A DNA stretch of 56,495 bases from an uncultured Selenomonadales bacterium. Its GTDB lineage: Bacteria > Bacillota > Negativicutes > Acidaminococcales > Acidaminococcaceae. Position 1 is the first letter of the stretch. The number at the start of each line of letters is the position of its first letter. Shown piece by piece: positions 2,329 through 56,495 of the stretch. The DNA lies in the NCBI GenBank assembly GCA_900315925.1, contig ONAV01000005.1, positions 1-56,495 on the forward strand, written 5' to 3'. The position numbers were made by a program, and so were the translations under genes. Below the pieces are notes generated by a model. That model was not told the origin of the DNA, made no database searches, and was given only the letters and a program-made list of their open reading frames with translations.

Positions 2329-2645
2329 GGGGGTGTAAAGGCTTCGACGGGTATAGGTGGTGTACGATAAGCGAGCCGTGGTTCCATCAGCACGTTAAAC
2401 GGTGGACGTTTGCCTGATTTAGGCGCCCGTTCTGCCAATCCGGCTCCCGCAGGAGCGGTAAGAACGTCACTTAGCGGGATCGTCCGTGAGCAAGGTTCGT
2501 AGCTCCGGGTTAAATCTTACGAACTAGCGATGGCGCAGCCGGTCGGCAGGCGGTGTCGGAGCGAAACAAAGTATGCTGTCTGCGCTCGGAGAAAGTTGTA
2601 TGACAATATGTTCGGACGAGGGTTCGACTCCCTCCACCTCCACCA
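2329..2645 (+). ncRNA. ssrA: Transfer-messenger RNA (tmRNA), tag frame not recognisable
   Basis: The 5' end GGGGGTG pairs over 7 bp with CACCTCC just before the terminal ACCA. AGGCTTCGACGGG (5') and GAGGGTTCGACTCCCTC (T arm) are standard tmRNA signatures, and GCGAGCCGTGGTTCC follows as in clostridial tmRNAs. The RNA is about 317 bases, shorter than the usual 350 or so in Firmicutes. After the GGTGGACGTTT stretch (2401-2411), where a run of tag codons ending in ALAA-type residues is expected, the sequence passes directly to GCCTGATTTAGGC. I find no in-frame tag. The last 14 bases are the attachment core of the downstream element. Confidence 0.85.
2632..2645. repeat. attL core, 14-bp direct repeat at the tmRNA 3' end
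   Basis: CTCCACCTCCACCA here recurs at 18939-18952. Just inside the element, GTGACTCCTT (2648-2657) is an exact inverted copy of AAGGAGTCAC (18919-18928) at the other end, which suggests matched recombinase-binding half sites. Confidence 0.75.
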
Positions 2646-2682
2646 GAGTGACTCCTTATTTTTAATAAGTTAAATATAGTGA

Positions 2683-2713
2683 AGATGCCAGTATTTCGCT
2701 GGCATCTTTTTTT
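2683..2713 (+). terminator. Rho-independent terminator inside attL
   Basis: AGATGCCAG-tatttcg-CTGGCATCT is a 9-bp stem followed by T7. It stops tmRNA transcription before it enters the convergent recombinase gene and replaces the native terminator lost to the insertion. Confidence 0.85.
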
Positions 2714-2715
2714 GT

Positions 2716-4368
2716 TCAGGATACTTTATTTTTGTATCGTTTTAATTCTTTTCTGCTGATGGTTATTGTATCCTGAAATCCTGGTTTACAAACAAACGAT
2801 GGAATAAGATTAATTTTCAAATCAACATTATCTATCCCGACTATTATTTTGTCTACGAAAACGTTTATAATTTCTTTTGTTTCTTTCAGGTTTCCCGAAA
2901 GAAATTGACGTTTCGCCGTATTAATGAGCTTTTTTAAGACGTTTTTATCTGGAATAGCAGTAGTAGTAGCCTTCATATCCGACAATTCCCTTTCTGCTTG
3001 CTCTTTCTGAATTCCGACCGATTCTAACTGTGACAGTATACTTTTTCGCACAATATCACTGTCCGTTTCAGAGATTGCTTTCAACAAATTACTTTCCTGT
3101 CGTCTATAGTCAGTTAAGGAAGATTGCAGTCTTTTTATGTCAGCGCTGTTACTTTTACATCTTTTTTGCACGTATTTTTTAAATCTGTCCATAATTGTAT
3201 CAACAATTCGAGGGTTGAATATTGATTTTGACAGAGTAGTAAGAACAAAAGGTTCAATCTCATTAAGCCTAATCGGTTTGTTTTTACACTCGCAAGAACT
3301 TCCCCTGCTGGCGCGGTTGCCGCATCTATATGTTATATAAGGCTCCTTGTATTTAGGGGAACGGTTGTAATTACCTGTATATGCGTAGTTACAGACGCCG
3401 CAGATGATTTTTCCAGATAATAAATAAGGTACAATATATTCAGGATGGCGGATTTGTTTGCGTTTATCCATAATATCCTGTACTTTTTTAAAGTCTTCCT
3501 TGGATATTATTGCCGGAATCCCATCGGGGATGATGATCCAGTCTTCCGGGCGCTTATATTTATGTGAGTTGCGCGTATGTGAAAACGGATCCTTTCCTGT
3601 ACACTTATTAAATATTAAGTCTCCTTGATATTTACGATTACGTAGAATATCGTGAATGGAATTTTTTTTGAATGGATGACCGGATTTTGTATTATAGTTC
3701 ATAGCGTTTAATCTGTTAATAATTTCTATATATCCTGACCCGTCAATGATCATCTGGAAAATTAACTTAACAATTCTAGCCTCTTCCTCGTTGACAACAT
3801 ATTGCTTTCGAGATTTTCCGTCGCCGGTGGTGACGGACTCAAGGTCATACCCTAGTGGTGGAGTGCCTCCATTGGTATAGCCATTTTGGGCATTAATTTT
3901 CATACCTTTCATAACTTCTCTAGATAAATTTTTGCTGTAGTAGGCTGCGTAGCTTCGTAAAATCGACTTGGTTACATCGTTGATTGGTTCGTCAGAATTA
4001 ATAGGCTCAGCCACGCTGATCAAAAAGACACCATAACGTTTTAATTCATCTTCGTAAATCAATCCTGTACGTTCATCCCGCATGAAACGATCGTATTTGT
4101 GTACTAGTACGATGTTAAATAACATGTTTTTTGCATCATTAATCATATCCTGAAATCTAGGTCTGTCCGCATTTGTACCTGAACAGGCTTCGTCAACGTA
4201 CCTTCCGGTAATGACGATTTTCTCTCGACCTGCAAAATCTTCTATAGCTTTAACCTGAGCTTCAATGCTGTTGCCATCATTCTGTGCATTGCTAGAGTAT
4301 CTGGCATAAAGGGCGGCCGTTATGGGCCGGCCCTTAGATAAATCACGCAACATTTCCAGTATTTCCAT
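2716..4368 (-). CDS. Large serine recombinase (integrase)
   Basis: About 550 residues. The N-terminal resolvase domain contains LYARYSS with the likely nucleophile Ser25, then the Recombinase domain, a zinc ribbon (CGVCNYAY ... YRCGNR) and a C-terminal coiled coil, the architecture of phiC31/TnpX-type integrases. I chose the ATG at 4368 because GGAGGAAGCTC precedes it; an open frame extends upstream to 4422 without a good site. Its stop lies 70 bases from the attL core, so it should catalyse integration and excision of the element. Use of the tmRNA end is more typical of tyrosine integrases, but none is present. Confidence 0.93.
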   Translation of the reverse strand: MEILEMLRDLSKGRPITAALYARYSSNAQNDGNSIEAQVKAIEDFAGREKIVITGRYVDEACSGTNADRPRFQDMINDAKNMLFNIVLVHKYDRFMRDERTGLIYEDELKRYGVFLISVAEPINSDEPINDVTKSILRSYAAYYSKNLSREVMKGMKINAQNGYTNGGTPPLGYDLESVTTGDGKSRKQYVVNEEEARIVKLIFQMIIDGSGYIEIINRLNAMNYNTKSGHPFKKNSIHDILRNRKYQGDLIFNKCTGKDPFSHTRNSHKYKRPEDWIIIPDGIPAIISKEDFKKVQDIMDKRKQIRHPEYIVPYLLSGKIICGVCNYAYTGNYNRSPKYKEPYITYRCGNRASRGSSCECKNKPIRLNEIEPFVLTTLSKSIFNPRIVDTIMDRFKKYVQKRCKSNSADIKRLQSSLTDYRRQESNLLKAISETDSDIVRKSILSQLESVGIQKEQAERELSDMKATTTAIPDKNVLKKLINTAKRQFLSGNLKETKEIINVFVDKIIVGIDNVDLKINLIPSFVCKPGFQDTITISRKELKRYKNKVS

Positions 4369-4807
4369 GAGCTTCCTCCATTTCAATATGTAAGCGATAA
4401 AGCATTTTAACAAAAATGTCAATAGCTTCTTCTTCTAACTTTTTGCTGTTTTTATCAAAATTAACAACAATGATTTTATCTTTATCCATTTTTAATAACT
4501 CCTTAAATTTAAATGGGAAATAATGACGTTTGAGAGAGATGCTAGGCGGGCCTTGTCTGCATATACAACTGGCTAGTAGCATTACAACCAAAACGATTAC
4601 TGGTTCGCAGCAAACGTAAAAGTTGTTTACCTGATTCACTTCCATAACTGAAACAATCAGGAGGCCGAGCAGCAAAAGGAATAGGTATCTGTTCCGTTTG
4701 GGCCGATTGAATGCATCCAGTATCAAGAGGACGGTACGGATATGCTGTACGTCGCTAGTGATATTGATTTTCTGCTTTTTGTAATCGCATTTGATTTTCA
4801 GTTTCAT
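4343..4807 (-). CDS. Small membrane protein of unknown function
   Basis: 154 residues with two predicted membrane helices (YLFLLLLGLLIVSVM and PVIVLVVMLLASCI), a charged N-terminus and a C-terminal region rich in Lys and Glu. It overlaps the start of the recombinase gene by 26 bases, so both are probably co-transcribed from the 4835-4912 control region. I do not recognise a family. Its place upstream of the integrase suggests a role tied to mobility or its control, but nothing in the sequence proves this. Confidence 0.6.
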   Translation of the reverse strand: MKLKIKCDYKKQKINITSDVQHIRTVLLILDAFNRPKRNRYLFLLLLGLLIVSVMEVNQVNNFYVCCEPVIVLVVMLLASCICRQGPPSISLKRHYFPFKFKELLKMDKDKIIVVNFDKNSKKLEEEAIDIFVKMLYRLHIEMEEAHGNTGNVA

Positions 4808-9369: not shown

Positions 9370-9576
9370 ATGTCAGATTCTTTACGTCAACGTCGTAAGA
9401 AGCTGGGATTGCGGCTTCTTGACGTGGCAAAACATACCGGTGTGTCGATAGGCAGCGTATATAATTACGAGACTGGTCGGCCAGGCGGCGTAATCAAAGA
9501 CAAATTCCAGGCGGTCATAGATTTTTATGACAAAATGGAAAAAGAGAAACAGGAGAAAGAAAATGCTGAATCCTGA
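9370..9576 (+). CDS. XRE-family helix-turn-helix regulator
   Basis: 68 residues, almost entirely one Cro/C1-type HTH: LRQRRKKLGLRLLDVAKHTG then VSIGSVYNYETGRPGG, with a short charged helical tail. AAAGGAGA lies 7 bases upstream of the ATG. First gene of the rightward operon; its stop overlaps the next start. Likely autoregulates the divergent control region. Confidence 0.8.
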   Translation: MSDSLRQRRKKLGLRLLDVAKHTGVSIGSVYNYETGRPGGVIKDKFQAVIDFYDKMEKEKQEKENAES

Positions 9577-10168
9577 AGCGACAGAACTTTCCCGCAATGC
9601 GTTACCATTGCAGTTGGAAAACCTTAAACAATCATATCCGTTTTTCCGGGTAATCTATGTGACCGACAGCGTTTATGACGGAAATGATATGTGTGCCAAG
9701 ATGGACTACTATAATTGGATAGATGCGACGGCCCTGGATCTTGAAGGCAGACCCCACAACATTCAGCTTAAGGCGAGAGAACCTGGACATAACGATCTGG
9801 TATTCATTGTCAGACATGTTACAGATGCCGACATGATTCGCAATCCATATTTTGGCTTTACCTTTGGCGGCGAAAAGTATTCATTCGTTCTGAACAACAT
9901 TGAAATTTTCTGTGAGATGGTTAACGACATAATTTATAACGTGCGGGCATCGGATCTGATGGCCCTGGAGTTTGACACAGGCGGCGAAGACAATCCGTTT
10001 ATTAAAAACGTTTGCTGCCAGGAATATGTCGATTCATCCGGTAACAAATTTCATTCCGGTAATTTTTACGCATTTATTTCCGTAGATAAAATCATAGAAC
10101 TTAAAGAGCGTCTGCTGAAAGCAGAGAACAGAGAGCATTATGAGCATACGCACAAGCAAAAACTGTAA
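9563..10168 (+). CDS. Unknown protein of the Rep operon
   Basis: 201 residues starting at the ATG at 9563, preceded by AGGAGAAAGAA inside the end of the XRE gene; a longer frame from 9527 lacks a site. The protein is acidic, mixed alpha/beta, with no membrane segment and no motif I recognise. It overlaps the next gene by 29 bases. Context suggests a role in element maintenance. Confidence 0.6.
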   Translation: MLNPEATELSRNALPLQLENLKQSYPFFRVIYVTDSVYDGNDMCAKMDYYNWIDATALDLEGRPHNIQLKAREPGHNDLVFIVRHVTDADMIRNPYFGFTFGGEKYSFVLNNIEIFCEMVNDIIYNVRASDLMALEFDTGGEDNPFIKNVCCQEYVDSSGNKFHSGNFYAFISVDKIIELKERLLKAENREHYEHTHKQKL

Positions 10169-10598
10169 ACAGCAGATTTTATCTGACAGGTCGCCAGTCA
10201 GATCTTTACTTGAGAGCATGCTGACGGCAGCCATGGCCTGGGTCGCCCGCAAAAAAGATAAACAAACCGGTAAAAGGATTGGCCGGGTTACCCAGGTCGA
10301 AGATATAATAAAGTATGGTAAGGATTCATTCAGTCTTCATGGCCGATGTGGGGAAAAAACGATCAGTATCAATGATATCCGGGGCGAAGCCGTATTCCTC
10401 AGGGTGTTACCTTCAGGCAAAATGGATACTGCAGACTATTTCCTGTTCTGTCTGGGCGGAGGGAATTATATCCTGACTGATTGGGGAACTGTCTGGCGGG
10501 TATTGGATAAGCTTAAAGGAAAAGGGGTAGTTATTTACGCTGATTGCTGGCGGCTCAATAAAAATAGTTTTCTTGCACTGCTGGACGTGATGACCTGA
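10140..10598 (+). CDS. Unknown basic protein of the Rep operon
   Basis: 152 residues with a Lys/Arg-rich first half (ARKKDKQTGKRIGR) and a compact second half rich in beta strands. The start overlaps the upstream gene; a weak GAGAG site precedes it, and an internal ATG near 10218 with GAGAGC is an alternative. No family recognised. Confidence 0.5.
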   Translation: MSIRTSKNCKQQILSDRSPVRSLLESMLTAAMAWVARKKDKQTGKRIGRVTQVEDIIKYGKDSFSLHGRCGEKTISINDIRGEAVFLRVLPSGKMDTADYFLFCLGGGNYILTDWGTVWRVLDKLKGKGVVIYADCWRLNKNSFLALLDVMT

Positions 10599-10789: not shown

Positions 10790-12262
10790 ATGATTCATAC
10801 CTTTGAGATCTACTACCCGCTGAACAGAAGATCGGCTGTGTACTGCGTGGCAAATCTTAACAGGATAGCCAGAGAGTATGGGCCGCAAAACGGCAAACCC
10901 AGATATTTCAGTGATGCATACGTCCATGAGTTTTTGGATGGTAATCTGAATTCACTCATATATCATACGGAGTTTCTGTTTCTTGGGCTGCACCATATAA
11001 AGTTTACAAAAAAGCCTATAACAGCAAGTTCTGCTTTATATTTCATTTACTTCCGTATCGAACCGGAGGTATTTATCACACACAATTACTCTCTTAACCT
11101 GTTCCAGTGTAATGAAAACAATTATGATGCTTTGCAGTCCCGCTTTGGAGAAGTAGTGTATCAGATTTTCCCAAAAGCGATTGAACACAGACCGCTGGAA
11201 GGAAGCATTATTGACTGTTTGCCTGATGAAGAAGAAAGAAGATATGCCCGTGATCTTGAATTCAGATATGATTTGCAGCAGCTAAACCGGGATGAGCTGG
11301 AATTCTATCGGTTCCGTTATATTTATTCCATTTTATATTTGGGTCTTGCTAAAATAGCCCGCGTTGACTATACCGCTGATTTCCACTGTGAATATCCTGA
11401 TACTTTTATAAAGCTGGTGCGACGTTCCTACGTTGACCACGATAGAAAAAAAAGGAAGTTGTACCTGAACAATGATAACTATCTGGCTGCATATCATAAG
11501 ACGGTAGATGGTTTTGTGATTTATGGTAAGCAGAAAAAGTACATGCTGTCCCGGTATGATGAGAAACCAAATATTGAGCAGTTAAGACAGGCGGCTGCCA
11601 ACGTCATCCGTATCGAATATGTCTGGAAATGCCGCGACCGAAAAAAACAGATTCAATTTACACGGCTGAATCTGCCAGCCAGAGGTCAGATTACTTATGT
11701 ATCAACCCCCAGCCTCTGTGGAATGATGCCTTATATCATTCAGGATATTGGCGCGGGTAAGCTGCGTGAAGAGTATTATAAGCATATTGGCGGCGGTCAG
11801 TGGATGTCCGATTACCACTGGTATGATAAAACTCTGGCTAAATCTGATCTGACAGAAACAATGAAGCAAAGAGTGTACAGACTGGCTTACCTGATATCAG
11901 AAGTACGACATCTGAATCAAAGTGAAGCTGCATTTGTTCAGGGTAGGGATATACAGCGCAAACGCGGCCCTGAAACATTACATGTTCAAGGACATAAGGA
12001 CGTTTTTCGTAATTACATAAATATAATGCGCAGACTTGGACTGCAGCCGTTTCGAATTCCAGAAACAGAGAATTGGAAGGTCAATGGCAAGATCGTAACT
12101 CATGTATCCTCTGAATATGATAATTTCACCATGGTAGATATGGGCATTGAGAACCACGAGATACTTAACTGGATATGCGAGCACGAAGCCGACTACGTCA
12201 ATTATGAAAGCACAGTTGCCGATCTGAAGGCCATGTATAACCGGTACCGTCCTACTGATTGA
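10790..12262 (+). CDS. Putative replication initiation protein (gene II/X-like)
   Basis: 490 residues. The centre has KIARVDYTADFHCEYPDTF, resembling the RIDY-type strand of phage/plasmid replication proteins of the II/X and Rep_trans groups, and later NVIRIEYVWKCRDRKKQIQF, like the R-x-E strand of the same proteins. The C-terminal third is helical. It sits directly after the 101-base hairpin, which fits an initiator beside its origin. The ribosome binding site is weak (TTGAGAG, 10 bases). The assignment rests on motif likeness and context; the catalytic Tyr is not identified. Confidence 0.5.
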   Translation: MIHTFEIYYPLNRRSAVYCVANLNRIAREYGPQNGKPRYFSDAYVHEFLDGNLNSLIYHTEFLFLGLHHIKFTKKPITASSALYFIYFRIEPEVFITHNYSLNLFQCNENNYDALQSRFGEVVYQIFPKAIEHRPLEGSIIDCLPDEEERRYARDLEFRYDLQQLNRDELEFYRFRYIYSILYLGLAKIARVDYTADFHCEYPDTFIKLVRRSYVDHDRKKRKLYLNNDNYLAAYHKTVDGFVIYGKQKKYMLSRYDEKPNIEQLRQAAANVIRIEYVWKCRDRKKQIQFTRLNLPARGQITYVSTPSLCGMMPYIIQDIGAGKLREEYYKHIGGGQWMSDYHWYDKTLAKSDLTETMKQRVYRLAYLISEVRHLNQSEAAFVQGRDIQRKRGPETLHVQGHKDVFRNYINIMRRLGLQPFRIPETENWKVNGKIVTHVSSEYDNFTMVDMGIENHEILNWICEHEADYVNYESTVADLKAMYNRYRPTD

Positions 12263-12430: not shown

Positions 12431-13069
12431 TTAAAAATAATTATTCCTCATGTAATCATTTACAAGTTTATGAAGGGGGTTGTCTGGTTTTTGATTTTCT
12501 TTTGTTATATTATCTTTCTTTAAAATTCCTTGCCGTGCTTCATTTGATCTAATAAAAAGTTCAGTAGCAATAATTTTATCTCTTGCTACCACCTTATTTT
12601 CGGAAAAAATCACTGCTAAATCATATAACGCATCTGGTTCGCAGTCCTTTGCTCTATGAACTAACCCTATACAAGCTTGTGCCATATAATCTCCACTCGA
12701 TGCTCTATCACGAAAAAAATTTAATAAAATATCAAAATCTATATTATAACGTTCCGTATTCTGCTGATAGGTCGGAAGCCATTGATTATTATACTGTTCA
12801 TGATTTTCTTCACTATTTTTATACTGTACAGGCTCTTTTTCACCATATTTGCGAAAGAGCTTTGATGCACATAAAAATGCTGCCACAAGTATTATAATTG
12901 GTGCTCCCACGCCTATTGGAAAGAAAGCAATGCCACAAAATAGCAAAAAACCACCCAAAAGCCAGCCAGATACACCGCCTTCTTTTATGACGCTGAACGC
13001 TTCGGAAATAAGCTCTAAACCAAATAAAAAAAACATTACAAGAAAGCAAAATCCCACAAAATAACCCAT
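12431..13069 (-). CDS. Membrane protein with Sel1-like C-terminus
   Basis: 212 residues from the ATG at 13069, which has GAGGTG 5 bases upstream; a longer frame lacks a site. Two or three membrane helices occupy residues 1-70, followed by a polar Gln/Asn linker and a helical domain (ASSGDYMAQACIGLVHRA, DALYDLAVIFSE, DKIIATELFIRS) that looks like one or two Sel1/TPR-type repeats. Function unknown. Upstream lie several AT-rich -10-like sequences. Confidence 0.6.
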   Translation of the reverse strand: MGYFVGFCFLVMFFLFGLELISEAFSVIKEGGVSGWLLGGFLLFCGIAFFPIGVGAPIIILVAAFLCASKLFRKYGEKEPVQYKNSEENHEQYNNQWLPTYQQNTERYNIDFDILLNFFRDRASSGDYMAQACIGLVHRAKDCEPDALYDLAVIFSENKVVARDKIIATELFIRSNEARQGILKKDNITKENQKPDNPLHKLVNDYMRNNYF

Positions 13070-13247
13070 ATTGCACCTCGTATAGAATAATAGTATCCCA
13101 AAAATTATACGTATGAGAATTTTCGTTCTTATTATATCATAAAATTTTTTGCTGGGCAAAACCAAAATTTGACGTAACTCAATGACATTGATGGTTTGTT
13201 TTCAGTTAAGCTGGCTTTTATTCGCCGGAAACACTATAACCCATAAA

Positions 13248-13293
13248 ACAAAAAAGGAGCTGGCGCCAGATTATATAACCTGACAACAGCTCC
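13248..13293 (-). terminator. Possible minus-strand terminator
   Basis: On the minus strand GGAGCTG (13293-13287) pairs with CAGCTCC (13262-13256) around a 24-base loop, followed by T6. No minus-strand gene leads into it directly, so it either stops read-through or ends an unannotated antisense transcript. Confidence 0.4.
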
Positions 13294-13314
13294 ATTCTCA
13301 TTTTGGCAGCTTGT

Positions 13315-13343
13315 TTGACAGTTCATTTCATATCTGATAAAAT
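13315..13343 (+). promoter_or_regulatory. Strong sigma-70 promoter for the structured RNA
   Basis: TTGACA (13315-13320), 17 bases, TAAAAT (13338-13343): near consensus. No open reading frame with a ribosome binding site follows. Confidence 0.7.
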
Positions 13344-13348
13344 TTAAA

Positions 13349-13781
13349 TGCCAGATGAGTGGATGGAAGCATCTCCTGTCGAAGCTCACCAATCTGGAGG
13401 AGGTCCGAGGATGCTCTGACAGGACCGACTTAAAAGGACTAAAGAACTGGTCTGCAAGTGGGCATGAGGCCCTTACTGCCCCAGTTAATTCTTTAGTAAC
13501 AAAAGGTGTTTGATTGAAAGTTCGCCCGGTACTTGAAACGCCGGTGTCCAACTTTCTTTCAGCGTCTTTTGTGAGCTTCTTCATGGTGATCCCCCCCAGC
13601 GATTGCTGCTGGGTTGGCTTGACCCATGCTGAAGTAAAAATAGAGCGATTCCTCGTGAATCCGTTTGATGTTTTTCATCAGGTGGCCATGATATGGATTC
13701 GCTCCAACAAAAGGGCTCTCCGCCTGTACCACCCGGTTTGTTACCGGGAGAGGTCCAGGAATAACGGAAGGGCCTTTTTTA
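13349..13781 (+). ncRNA. Candidate large structured non-coding RNA, family unknown
   Basis: About 430 bases of stacked helices: CCAGAT/ATCTGG closing a first domain; GGTCC/GGACC; ACTAAAGAA (13438-13446) with TTCTTTAGT (13489-13497); GGGCA/TGCCC; GAAAGTT/AACTTTC around CCGG/CCGG; CATGG/CCATG around CCCAGC/GCTGGG; GAGCGATTCC/GGATTCGCTC; CCGTTTGATG (13661-13670) with CATCAGGTGG (13676-13685); CCCGGT/ACCGGG. Several pairs are G-U on the + strand but A-C on the minus strand, so the RNA should be read on +. AGGCCCTT in one hairpin loop (13467-13474) is complementary to AAGGGCCT before the T-run at 13775. No coding frame with a start signal exists. Size and mobile context recall ROOL/GOLLD-type RNAs, but I cannot match it to one. 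Confidence 0.6.
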
Positions 13782-14001
13782 TTTCTCTTTGCGCCCAGCG
13801 TGGCCCAAGAGGTGGACCCGCACGGAAAAGCAGACATACAGTATATAGGAAAAACAACGTTGTAACCATGTTGGATGTCACAAAAGCCAGCATTTATGCT
13901 AGTTTCAGAATTAACTTATCTGAAAAATGGCTATGATTTTATGATTATCAAACATGTATTCGTAATAAATTACATCTGTAGAAATACGGACAATTAAAAA
14001 T

Positions 14002-20634: not shown

Positions 20635-21015
20635 TCACGCTTCCGCAATCACTTCAATTTCAACCAGCCCGTCTTTGGGAAGAGCCGCCACCTGAACAGC
20701 GGAGCGGGCCGGGCAGTCCTCTTTGAAAAATTCGGAATACACCGCGTTCATAGCCGCAAAATCCTTCATATCTTTTAAAAAGACGGTAACCTTCACCACT
20801 TTTTCCAAACCGGAACCAGCCGCTTCCAGCACATGCTTTACATTGGTCAGGGACTGGCGGGTTTGCCCCGTCACGCCGCCTTCCGCGAATTGTCCCGTTT
20901 CCGGAACCAGCCCCAGCTGTCCGGACGCAAATACAAACCCGTTGGCTTTGATCCCCTGGGAATAGGGTCCGATTGCCCCCGGCGCTTTGGTTGTCGCTAT
21001 AATTGTTTTTGCCAT
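20635..21015 (-). CDS. ridA: RidA-family enamine/imine deaminase
   Basis: 126 residues from the ATG at 21015, preceded by AGGAGG 8 bases away. Motifs AIGPYSQGIKANGFVFASGQ, KVTVFLKDMKDFAAMN and PARSAVQVAALPKDGLVEIEVIA are diagnostic, including the Arg (in PARS) and Glu residues that bind the substrate carboxylate. RidA hydrolyses reactive 2-aminoacrylate released by PLP enzymes. Divergent from the racemase gene; usual length for the family. Confidence 0.95.
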   Translation of the reverse strand: MAKTIIATTKAPGAIGPYSQGIKANGFVFASGQLGLVPETGQFAEGGVTGQTRQSLTNVKHVLEAAGSGLEKVVKVTVFLKDMKDFAAMNAVYSEFFKEDCPARSAVQVAALPKDGLVEIEVIAEA

Positions 21016-21247
21016 GTTCATTACCTCCTGTATCGCTGCTCCATTGTATCGCTGCTGTCTGTAGTATTCCAAAAAATTGTGTCAGTTTCATGGAAACCGG
21101 ATTTTTGTTTGAGCATTTTGCTCTTTTCAATTATATCACAACAACCGCTTTTGTTTTTTTACTTTTTATCACATTTTGTGTTATAATTCTTTCCGTAAAA
21201 CGAATATCAGTTGCGTCGTCCCTTGCGGCGGCAGAATGGAGACAGAC

Positions 21248-56396: not shown

Positions 56397-56495
56397 GTCG
56401 AGTAGACAGTCTCGACATACCTTTCCTCTATATGTGAAAGGCTTGCCTACTGCCCCTCACAGAACCGGACGTGCGGTTTTCTCGCATCCGGCTCT
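56397..56495 (-). mobile_element. 3' end of a group II intron (domains V and VI), rest outside the window
   Basis: Read on the minus strand, 56494-56462 starts GAGCCGGATGCG, has an A-rich GAAAA loop and ends CGCACGTCCGGTTC: the 33-base domain V with the AGC catalytic triad and the two-base bulge. Domain VI follows (56458 to about 56397) with a long stem ending in CTACTCGAC. The intron reads right to left, so its body and any reverse transcriptase lie to the right of the window. The intron-exon border near 56397 is approximate. Confidence 0.75.

Follow-up and report, generated by a model that had tools for sequence, protein, structure and literature searches.

A probable modular noncoding RNA beside a large serine recombinase in an uncultured Acidaminococcaceae bacterium

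Does the stretch of about 430 bases that follows a strong promoter in contig ONAV01000005.1 of an uncultured Selenomonadales bacterium encode a structured noncoding RNA and, if so, on which strand and of what kind? The window analysed here, 56,495 nucleotides in all, is one contig of a 2.56 Mb genome in 100 contigs. The promoter proposed in a first-pass annotation is present on the + strand (TTGACA at 13315-13320, a 17-base spacer and TAAAAT at 13338-13343), with an 11/12 match and an extended TG, and an RNA read from it would be expected to start near 13350. Promoter-like sites between 13000 and 14100 are no more frequent than chance (3 compared with 2.6 in shuffled sequence), and this promoter is notable for its quality only, not for the number of sites around it. 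The sequence TTTGACA..ATATCTGATA also aligns with the promoter-like start of an RNA unit, u1, in a relative described below (score 35, equalled by 0/200 shuffles, a thin margin given best shuffle scores of 33-34). The G+C content is 49% in the RNA region, 33% in the preceding 1 kb and 43% in the following 1 kb. The region ends in a hairpin with a T-run (13707-13785), and a mechanical list of open reading frames contains none of at least 80 aa starting on the + strand between 13,790 and 14,961. As read from these features, the anatomy of 13345-13790 is that of a stand-alone RNA gene, with a promoter, no kept frame, a terminal hairpin with T-run and no + strand gene directly downstream, and the predicted transcript would extend from 13350 to ~13780.

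The positions of the features discussed are collected in Table 1. To the left of the RNA, the tmRNA gene has a gene for a large serine recombinase as its immediate neighbour, and the stretch 2329-4422 that holds both is perhaps the edge of an integrated element. RadC and a RecE-like exonuclease are also encoded on this side, while genes for Vsr, an EcoRII-like restriction enzyme and a C5 cytosine methylase lie to the right on the minus strand. Searches of Pfam, PADLOC, NCBIfam and PHROGs returned nothing for the neighbouring frames at 9527-10168, 10140-10598, 10790-12262 and 12431-13165. Elsewhere in the window, a 145-aa frame (20635-21072) that seems partial matches positions 162-291 of the 294 in the PD-T4-2_B defence profile (E 2.2e-35), and an Rfam match to a group II intron family (56397-56495) is cut by the window end.

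Table 1. Positions of features in the window and of related elements in Succiniclasticum ruminis and its genus
Feature	Position	Strand	Basis or remark
tmRNA gene	2329-2645		Rfam; left of the RNA
Large serine recombinase	2716-4422	-	directly beside the tmRNA gene
ORF, 116 aa	13234-13584	-	ORF list
Hairpin GGAGCTG..CAGCTCC then T6, upstream of promoter	13248-13293	-	read from sequence
Sigma-70-type promoter TTGACA-17-TAAAAT, extended TG	13315-13343	+	promoter scan, 11/12
5' domain	13351-13432	+	folds and reading
5' domain closing stem CCAGAT/ATCTGG	13351-13356/13392-13397	+	folds and reading
5' domain hairpin GGTCC/GGACC	13402-13406/13422-13426	+	folds and reading
Hairpin H1, closing stem ACTAAAGAA/TTCTTTAGT	13438-13497	+	folds
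Hairpin D	13499-13572	+	folds
ORF, 140 aa	13514-13936	+	ORF list
ORF, 92 aa	13559-13837	-	ORF list
Hairpin A, conserved module	13573-13636	+	S. ruminis relative, model, covariation
Hairpin B, conserved module	13640-13709	+	3-copy covariation
Hairpin E with T-run, presumed intrinsic terminator	13707-13785	+	fold; model R3
S. ruminis u1: 5' part, A, insert X, B		+	reading and folding
S. ruminis u2: C, D, E		+	reading and folding
S. ruminis u3: 5' part, A then TTTTTTT		+	reading and folding
S. ruminis u4: C		+	reading and folding
S. ruminis u5: 5' part, A, B, insert G, E		+	reading and folding
S. ruminis further hairpin behind 12/12 promoter	L005, promoter at 11,651	+	promoter scan, reading
Palindrome with core ATACGGCGAAAATGGAGTAT	L005 10559-10592; L046; L048-L052; L044; L045; G000:C48:47728-47747		
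S. ruminis promoter-hairpin-T-run examples	L074 near 16,730; L126 near 1,050-1,280; L158 segments from 3,591 and 13,801		

The stretch had been described as lacking a translatable frame, which does not hold as worded: the RNA region is overlapped by three ORFs, each 80 aa or longer. At E 1, neither Pfam nor PHROGs yielded a match to any of them, the + frame over the RNA region corresponds to S. ruminis sequence in differing frames, and in hairpin B, where 57 ungapped bases hold 11 substitutions, these are spread 3/4/4 over the codon positions. Neither a conserved frame nor a family match was found, and a coding function here is unsupported.

Folding of 13345-13790 (446 bases) on the + strand gave -172.5 kcal/mol, compared with a shuffle mean of -135.2 (sd 6.3; z -5.9), and 0/100 shuffles folded as low. 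The minus strand also folds below its shuffles and nearly as well (z -5.3), so fold energy alone cannot pick the strand. The four helices named in the first-pass annotation can all be read in the sequence: ACTAAAGAA/TTCTTTAGT (13438-13446/13489-13497), GAAAGTT/AACTTTC (13516-13522/13550-13556), CCCAGC/GCTGGG (13595-13600/13608-13613) and CCGTTTGATG/CATCAGGTGG (13661-13670/13676-13685). The G-U pairs of the last had been taken to place the RNA on the + strand, a call that is borne out both by copies of hairpin B, all three of which keep two of the three G-U pairs while the third is replaced by C-G or A-U, and by the pair cells over the alignments of A, B and E (245 Watson-Crick, 29 G-U, 4 A-C and 12 other). 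The 29 G-U against 4 A-C cells therefore point to + as the RNA strand. This asymmetry weighs against a minus-strand product, whether an RNA or the 116-aa protein, being the real gene here. Such a product would be consistent with the minus-strand fold, the minus ORF 13234-13584 and the minus-oriented hairpin with T6 at 13248-13293, which is absent from the terminator scan list and hints at the end of a minus-strand transcript. That hairpin lies inside the 3´ end of the ORF, however, the ORF matches no protein family and the copies of A differ by single-base gaps when aligned, and we consider this reading highly improbable. As for the proposed 8-bp pseudoknot, AGGCCCTT (13467-13474) can indeed pair with AAGGGCCT (13768-13775), but the case for it is weak: a helix as long appeared in 12/300 shuffles, rising to 51/300 once G-U pairs were allowed, and the pairing would occupy the 3´ strand of the terminal stem.

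Among 150 relatives, a blastn-type search returned one further convincing genome, that of Succiniclasticum ruminis DSM 9236 (G004), a member of the same genus; G148 gave another match, of 37 bases (E 5.7e-4), which was set aside as coding-like by eye. When the window modules were compared by local alignment with an S. ruminis cluster of RNA units and with a unit on contig C33 of that genome (200 shuffles each), the promoter, A and B were each equalled by 0/200 shuffles. No significant relative was found there for the 5´ domain (144/200), H1 (200/200), D (26/200) or E (42/200), and with that score window D was rejected as a relative of the S. ruminis D hairpins. Neither flank of the RNA aligned significantly with the S. 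ruminis sequence (123/200 and 129/200). From this outcome, the conserved core consists of the promoter, A and B, and the other hairpins are variable. In the 5´ domain, crossing pairs AGCATC/GATGCT and CCTGTC/GACAGG are possible by folding and reading. Hairpin A is 91.7% identical to its S. ruminis u3 counterpart over 60 bases and scored 74.5 bits with R2, a covariance model of A for which the window copy is one of the four source copies. Hairpin B, the basis of model R1, has an AAU/C internal loop, a UAU bulge and a tandem of G-U/U-G pairs. The bulge, most of the loop and the tandem stay constant while the letters of the surrounding helix vary, and this retention suggests that B is not just a terminator but a site of recognition. 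By eye, A and B suggested duplicates of one another, a relationship discarded when their pairing registers were found to disagree. An interruption in its stem probably explains why the terminal hairpin E is absent from the list of a simple terminator scan. Model R3, for which the sources were six E hairpins of S. ruminis and not window E, ranks it first in the 56 kb (19.1 bits, E 0.024, a rough value from a terminator-like model).

The S. ruminis counterparts of the window promoter and of hairpins A and B lie in a 2.2 kb cluster (L005 9,897-12,110) made up of short units of promoter and hairpin, whose boundaries, names and + orientation come from our reading and folding. The promoter scan of this cluster gave 10 sites of at least 9/12, compared with 3.9 in shuffles, including four promoters of 11-12/12, all on the + strand; u1 and u3 have only weaker promoter-like sequences that are absent from the scan list. 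On contig C23 of S. ruminis (NZ_FONL01000002.1), promoters begin at 117,325, 117,926 and 118,029. Across the window and S. ruminis, A is found in four units and B in three. The order A-B is the same in the window and in u5, u1 has an insert between the two, and u3 ends with A. A D-E stretch is likewise common to u2 and the C33 unit, where it follows different 5´ parts. The C33 unit is 95.6% identical over 204 bases to a unit on C26, from promoter-like sequence through T-run, and elsewhere in the 2.34 Mb examined, another E was found on C26 and an E on C17. On C28, a promoter-like sequence of its own precedes a copy of the 3´ hairpin of the u5 5´ part (98.3% over 60 bases), and a further C26 stretch recurs at about 151.5 kb on C23 (94.4% over 251 bases).

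Several other elements were noted in the same genome. The RNA cluster is followed by a gene for a 568-aa sigma-70-like protein with a C-terminal HTH (L005 12119-13825), whose leader and start recur in G012 (L037; ~170 bases upstream seen). A SAM riboswitch above the gathering score (L116 18972-19061, on C17, ~0.8 kb from an E-type hairpin), detected at one of five other S. ruminis loci searched with Rfam, is not part of the RNA units. In 287 kb of S. ruminis intergenic DNA, 30 places have a promoter-like sequence followed within ~110 bases by a hairpin and T-run, compared with 1 in a single shuffle. Some of these are ordinary terminators or a tRNA; others look like tiny hairpin sRNA genes.

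The copies also permitted a test of the helices by covariation, which rests on three to six related sequences per module. In the three copies of B, 91.5% of the cells in 24 pairs are paired, and 10 pairs changed on both sides, compared with a shuffle mean of 4.6 (1/500 shuffles as high). Both-side changes were counted in 5/21 pairs of the four copies of A (1/500 shuffles as high) and in 8/23 pairs of the six S. ruminis E-type copies, among which window E is not included (2/500; both inner helices included). Partners slid along the alignment gave 0-3 for B, 0-2 for A and 0 for E, a comparison that favours the actual structures since these were derived from the same aligned sequences. The number of further pair types was not above shuffles for A (315/500) or E (416/500). 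Independent changes are few because only two genomes among those searched carry A and B. These double changes support the predicted helices of B, A and the S. ruminis E-type hairpins. Promoter, helices, covariation in these three modules, strand and modular make-up are thus all evident in the sequence itself. A promoter with a relative, compensatory changes, the G-U asymmetry and a terminal hairpin with T-run together make a structured + strand noncoding RNA beside the large serine recombinase a well-supported prediction.

How widely are these modules distributed? R1 gave matches at E 1 in 9/150 relatives (G000, G004, G065, G127, G132, G119, G061, G074 and G075). Those in G065 and G127 (E about 1e-4) are plain palindromes without the bulge and were judged false; inspection of the alignments showed those in G132 and G119 to be weak, and the last three have E values of 0.59-0.96. 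At E 0.01, R1 matched 3/380 genomes of the class (G000, G004, G065) and 2/398 of the phylum (G000, G065). R2 matched 3/150 relatives at E 1 and 3/379 class genomes at E 0.01 (G000, G004 and G069); the G069 match is a hairpin resembling a terminator and was judged false. Because these runs scored no more than 12-34 candidates per genome, they may have missed weak relatives. When the 14 genomes of the genus were searched more laxly, one run added tRNA-Ser matches in G003 and G008; another, with 150 of 280-479 candidates per genome scored, added weak matches in G010 (E 0.02; looks coding by eye), at another place in S. ruminis (1.05) and in G007 (4.73). Within S. ruminis, R1 found only the two B copies in 85 pieces (1.64 Mb); in 91 pieces (1.67 Mb), R3 recovered the six copies from which it was built, matched their opposite strands and gave weak matches at two other places (E 0.009 and 0.03). 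A pattern scan of genome contigs gave four loci, one of them S. ruminis; with R2, none of the remaining three scored better than E 2. No relatives of the window RNA were detected by blastn, at the sensitivity used, in phages and plasmids, or by five exact-pattern scans of viral contigs. Among the genomes searched, convincing covariance-model matches to A and B are thus confined to the window's genome and S. ruminis.

The tRNA-Ser matches raise the question of whether some modules descend from tRNA genes, B for instance being what is left of a tRNA-Ser without its D arm. R1 has an E of about 0.08 to tRNA-Ser(CGA) in two sister genomes, and u5B shares 23/28 letters with this tRNA. In a comparison with 22 tRNAs, u5B, the u5 5´ part and u5G were equalled by only 2/300 shuffles, as no window module was; the window 5´ domain was equalled by 12/300, window B by 64/300 and u1B by 292/300. 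When 24 modules were compared with 42 tRNAs, u5G scored 39 and exceeded every control. Control scores reached 36, however, the value of u5B, and the u5 5´ part dropped to 32, while the mean best score was 26.9, compared with 25.3 for mirrored, 24.6 for reverse-complemented and 24.3 for complemented modules. The modules of the window scored close to the controls. A tRNA origin is thus largely unsupported, and we give it very little credence.

A possible, though distinctly less probable, alternative to a selected RNA gene is that the hairpins are small mobile or repeated palindromes of the MITE or REP kind that are transcribed by chance and have no selected RNA function. Copies of such elements are flanked by inverted repeats or target duplications and moved by a transposase. 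As to origin, this reading overlaps partly with the one that we prefer. Like such palindromes, the hairpins are short, dispersed, imperfect and intergenic, with dispersed copies within one genome and a patchy distribution within one genus. A different MITE-like element, a ~36-base imperfect palindrome (core ATACGGCGAAAATGGAGTAT, at most three mismatches), is repeated in the genus, with matches in 9/14 genomes and 15 in S. ruminis (0-1 per genome for a reversed-pattern control), and it sits between several S. ruminis RNA units. This palindrome is missing from the window, however. Unlike MITE or REP elements, at least one pair of copies, those on C33 and C26, spans promoter-like sequence to T-run, modules combine within a unit, and the helices covary while the loop and bulge letters of B stay.

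The first-pass annotation had likened the RNA to ROOL and GOLLD, as a large structured RNA of unknown function on mobile DNA. ROOL RNAs are encoded in phages and prophages, often near tRNA islands, and form a homo-oligomeric cage. The size class, likely rumen origin and mobile-element context fit an ornate RNA of this type, and the window RNA lies beside the serine recombinase and the RecE-like gene, with the tmRNA gene ~10.7 kb off and no tRNA in the window. The likeness was not upheld. In the window, only the tmRNA and the group II intron reach an Rfam threshold, and the RNA region has no such match. At E up to 10, the 13100-14000 region gave 11 chance-level matches to unrelated families (lowest E 1.1), none of them to ROOL or GOLLD, the models of which were presumably included in the Rfam copy used. 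The S. ruminis cluster gave two matches below threshold to unrelated families (E 1.7 and 3.8). Moreover, the window RNA consists of separable, exchangeable hairpins shuffled into varying combinations rather than one architecture, and its candidate for a long-range pairing is weak. It is also shorter, at 446 bases, than a ROOL from cow rumen (659 bases) and than GOLLD, often over 800 bases, as given in the available text of PMC12286853. We therefore regard a cage-forming RNA as very unlikely; the stretch is probably a real modular noncoding RNA of ~430 bases that is unlike the known giant RNAs.

What might such an RNA do? We give a probability of about 0.5 to a reading in which it is built of exchangeable hairpin cassettes and would work in trans, as a scaffold or decoy that mobile elements carry as their cargo. 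The gene would be read from the strong housekeeping-type promoter to the terminal hairpin, and in its RNA a series of imperfect hairpins, most of them independent of one another, would follow in a row (5´ domain, H1, D, A, B and E). A and B belong to a small cassette family, so far limited to one genus, whose members occur in other combinations in S. ruminis, several of them behind a promoter of their own and with a T-run where they come last. The internal loops and bulges that a cassette keeps may make it a binding site, most likely for a protein, a role suggested solely by anatomy; that the whole is a trans-acting protein-binding RNA is a low-confidence guess. When the window was compared with S. 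ruminis contig C23 (87,001-146,000), matches were limited to the RNA and a distant recombinase (28% identity); the two loci therefore have different neighbours, and no partner protein common to both was found in the stretches compared. Since the two loci share no neighbouring gene fit as a partner, the partner is more likely a host factor, and we accordingly lean towards an RNA that travels as cargo and would act in trans as scaffold or decoy.

CsrB and RsmZ, sponge RNAs with many GGA-bearing hairpin loops, offer a parallel in that a hairpin chain is proposed to serve as repeated protein-binding sites. The window hairpins differ from one another, however, and GGA is not found once per hairpin loop (11 occurrences compared with 6.8 expected; 6 in the 5´ domain by reading). 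A crude CsrA-like pattern found nothing in ~2.34 Mb of S. ruminis plus the window, where an RNase III pattern was found, and CsrA is an unlikely partner. It is also unlikely that the RNA is an antisense regulator that base-pairs in trans with mRNAs through exposed loops. Such a regulator would be consistent with the variation of loops and 5´ parts between units and with the sRNA-like size and promoter/terminator layout, but the conserved letters of B are those of a bulge and internal loops, not of long single-stranded stretches, and a crude Hfq-like pattern found nothing in ~2.34 Mb of S. ruminis or in the window. The inserts u1X and u5G look coding-like by eye on the other strand, and antisense to adhesin genes was considered for them; at E 0.001, neither had a protein match beyond itself in ~2.34 Mb of S. 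ruminis plus the window.

A broader form of the cassette reading, which is doubtful at present, is that the genus holds a repertoire of cassettes shuffled like protein domains behind similar promoters, in which the cassettes would keep their binding motifs and mobile elements would carry custom chains as scaffolds or decoys. Among the listed titles and abstract openings of open-licence papers on Succiniclasticum noncoding RNA (rumen studies, to judge by title), ROOL and GOLLD, mobile-element hairpin RNAs and sponge RNAs, we found no hairpin-cassette RNA family. To our knowledge, the best-known large bacterial RNAs of unknown function each have a single conserved architecture. Searches with a single full-length model would miss a cassette family because only some of its modules are conserved. 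S. ruminis DSM 9236 provides a named, sequenced strain in which expression and partners can be tested. If the cassette reading is true, the RNA would belong to a family made of different strings of a few covarying hairpins, and would show how new structured RNAs could arise by shuffling.
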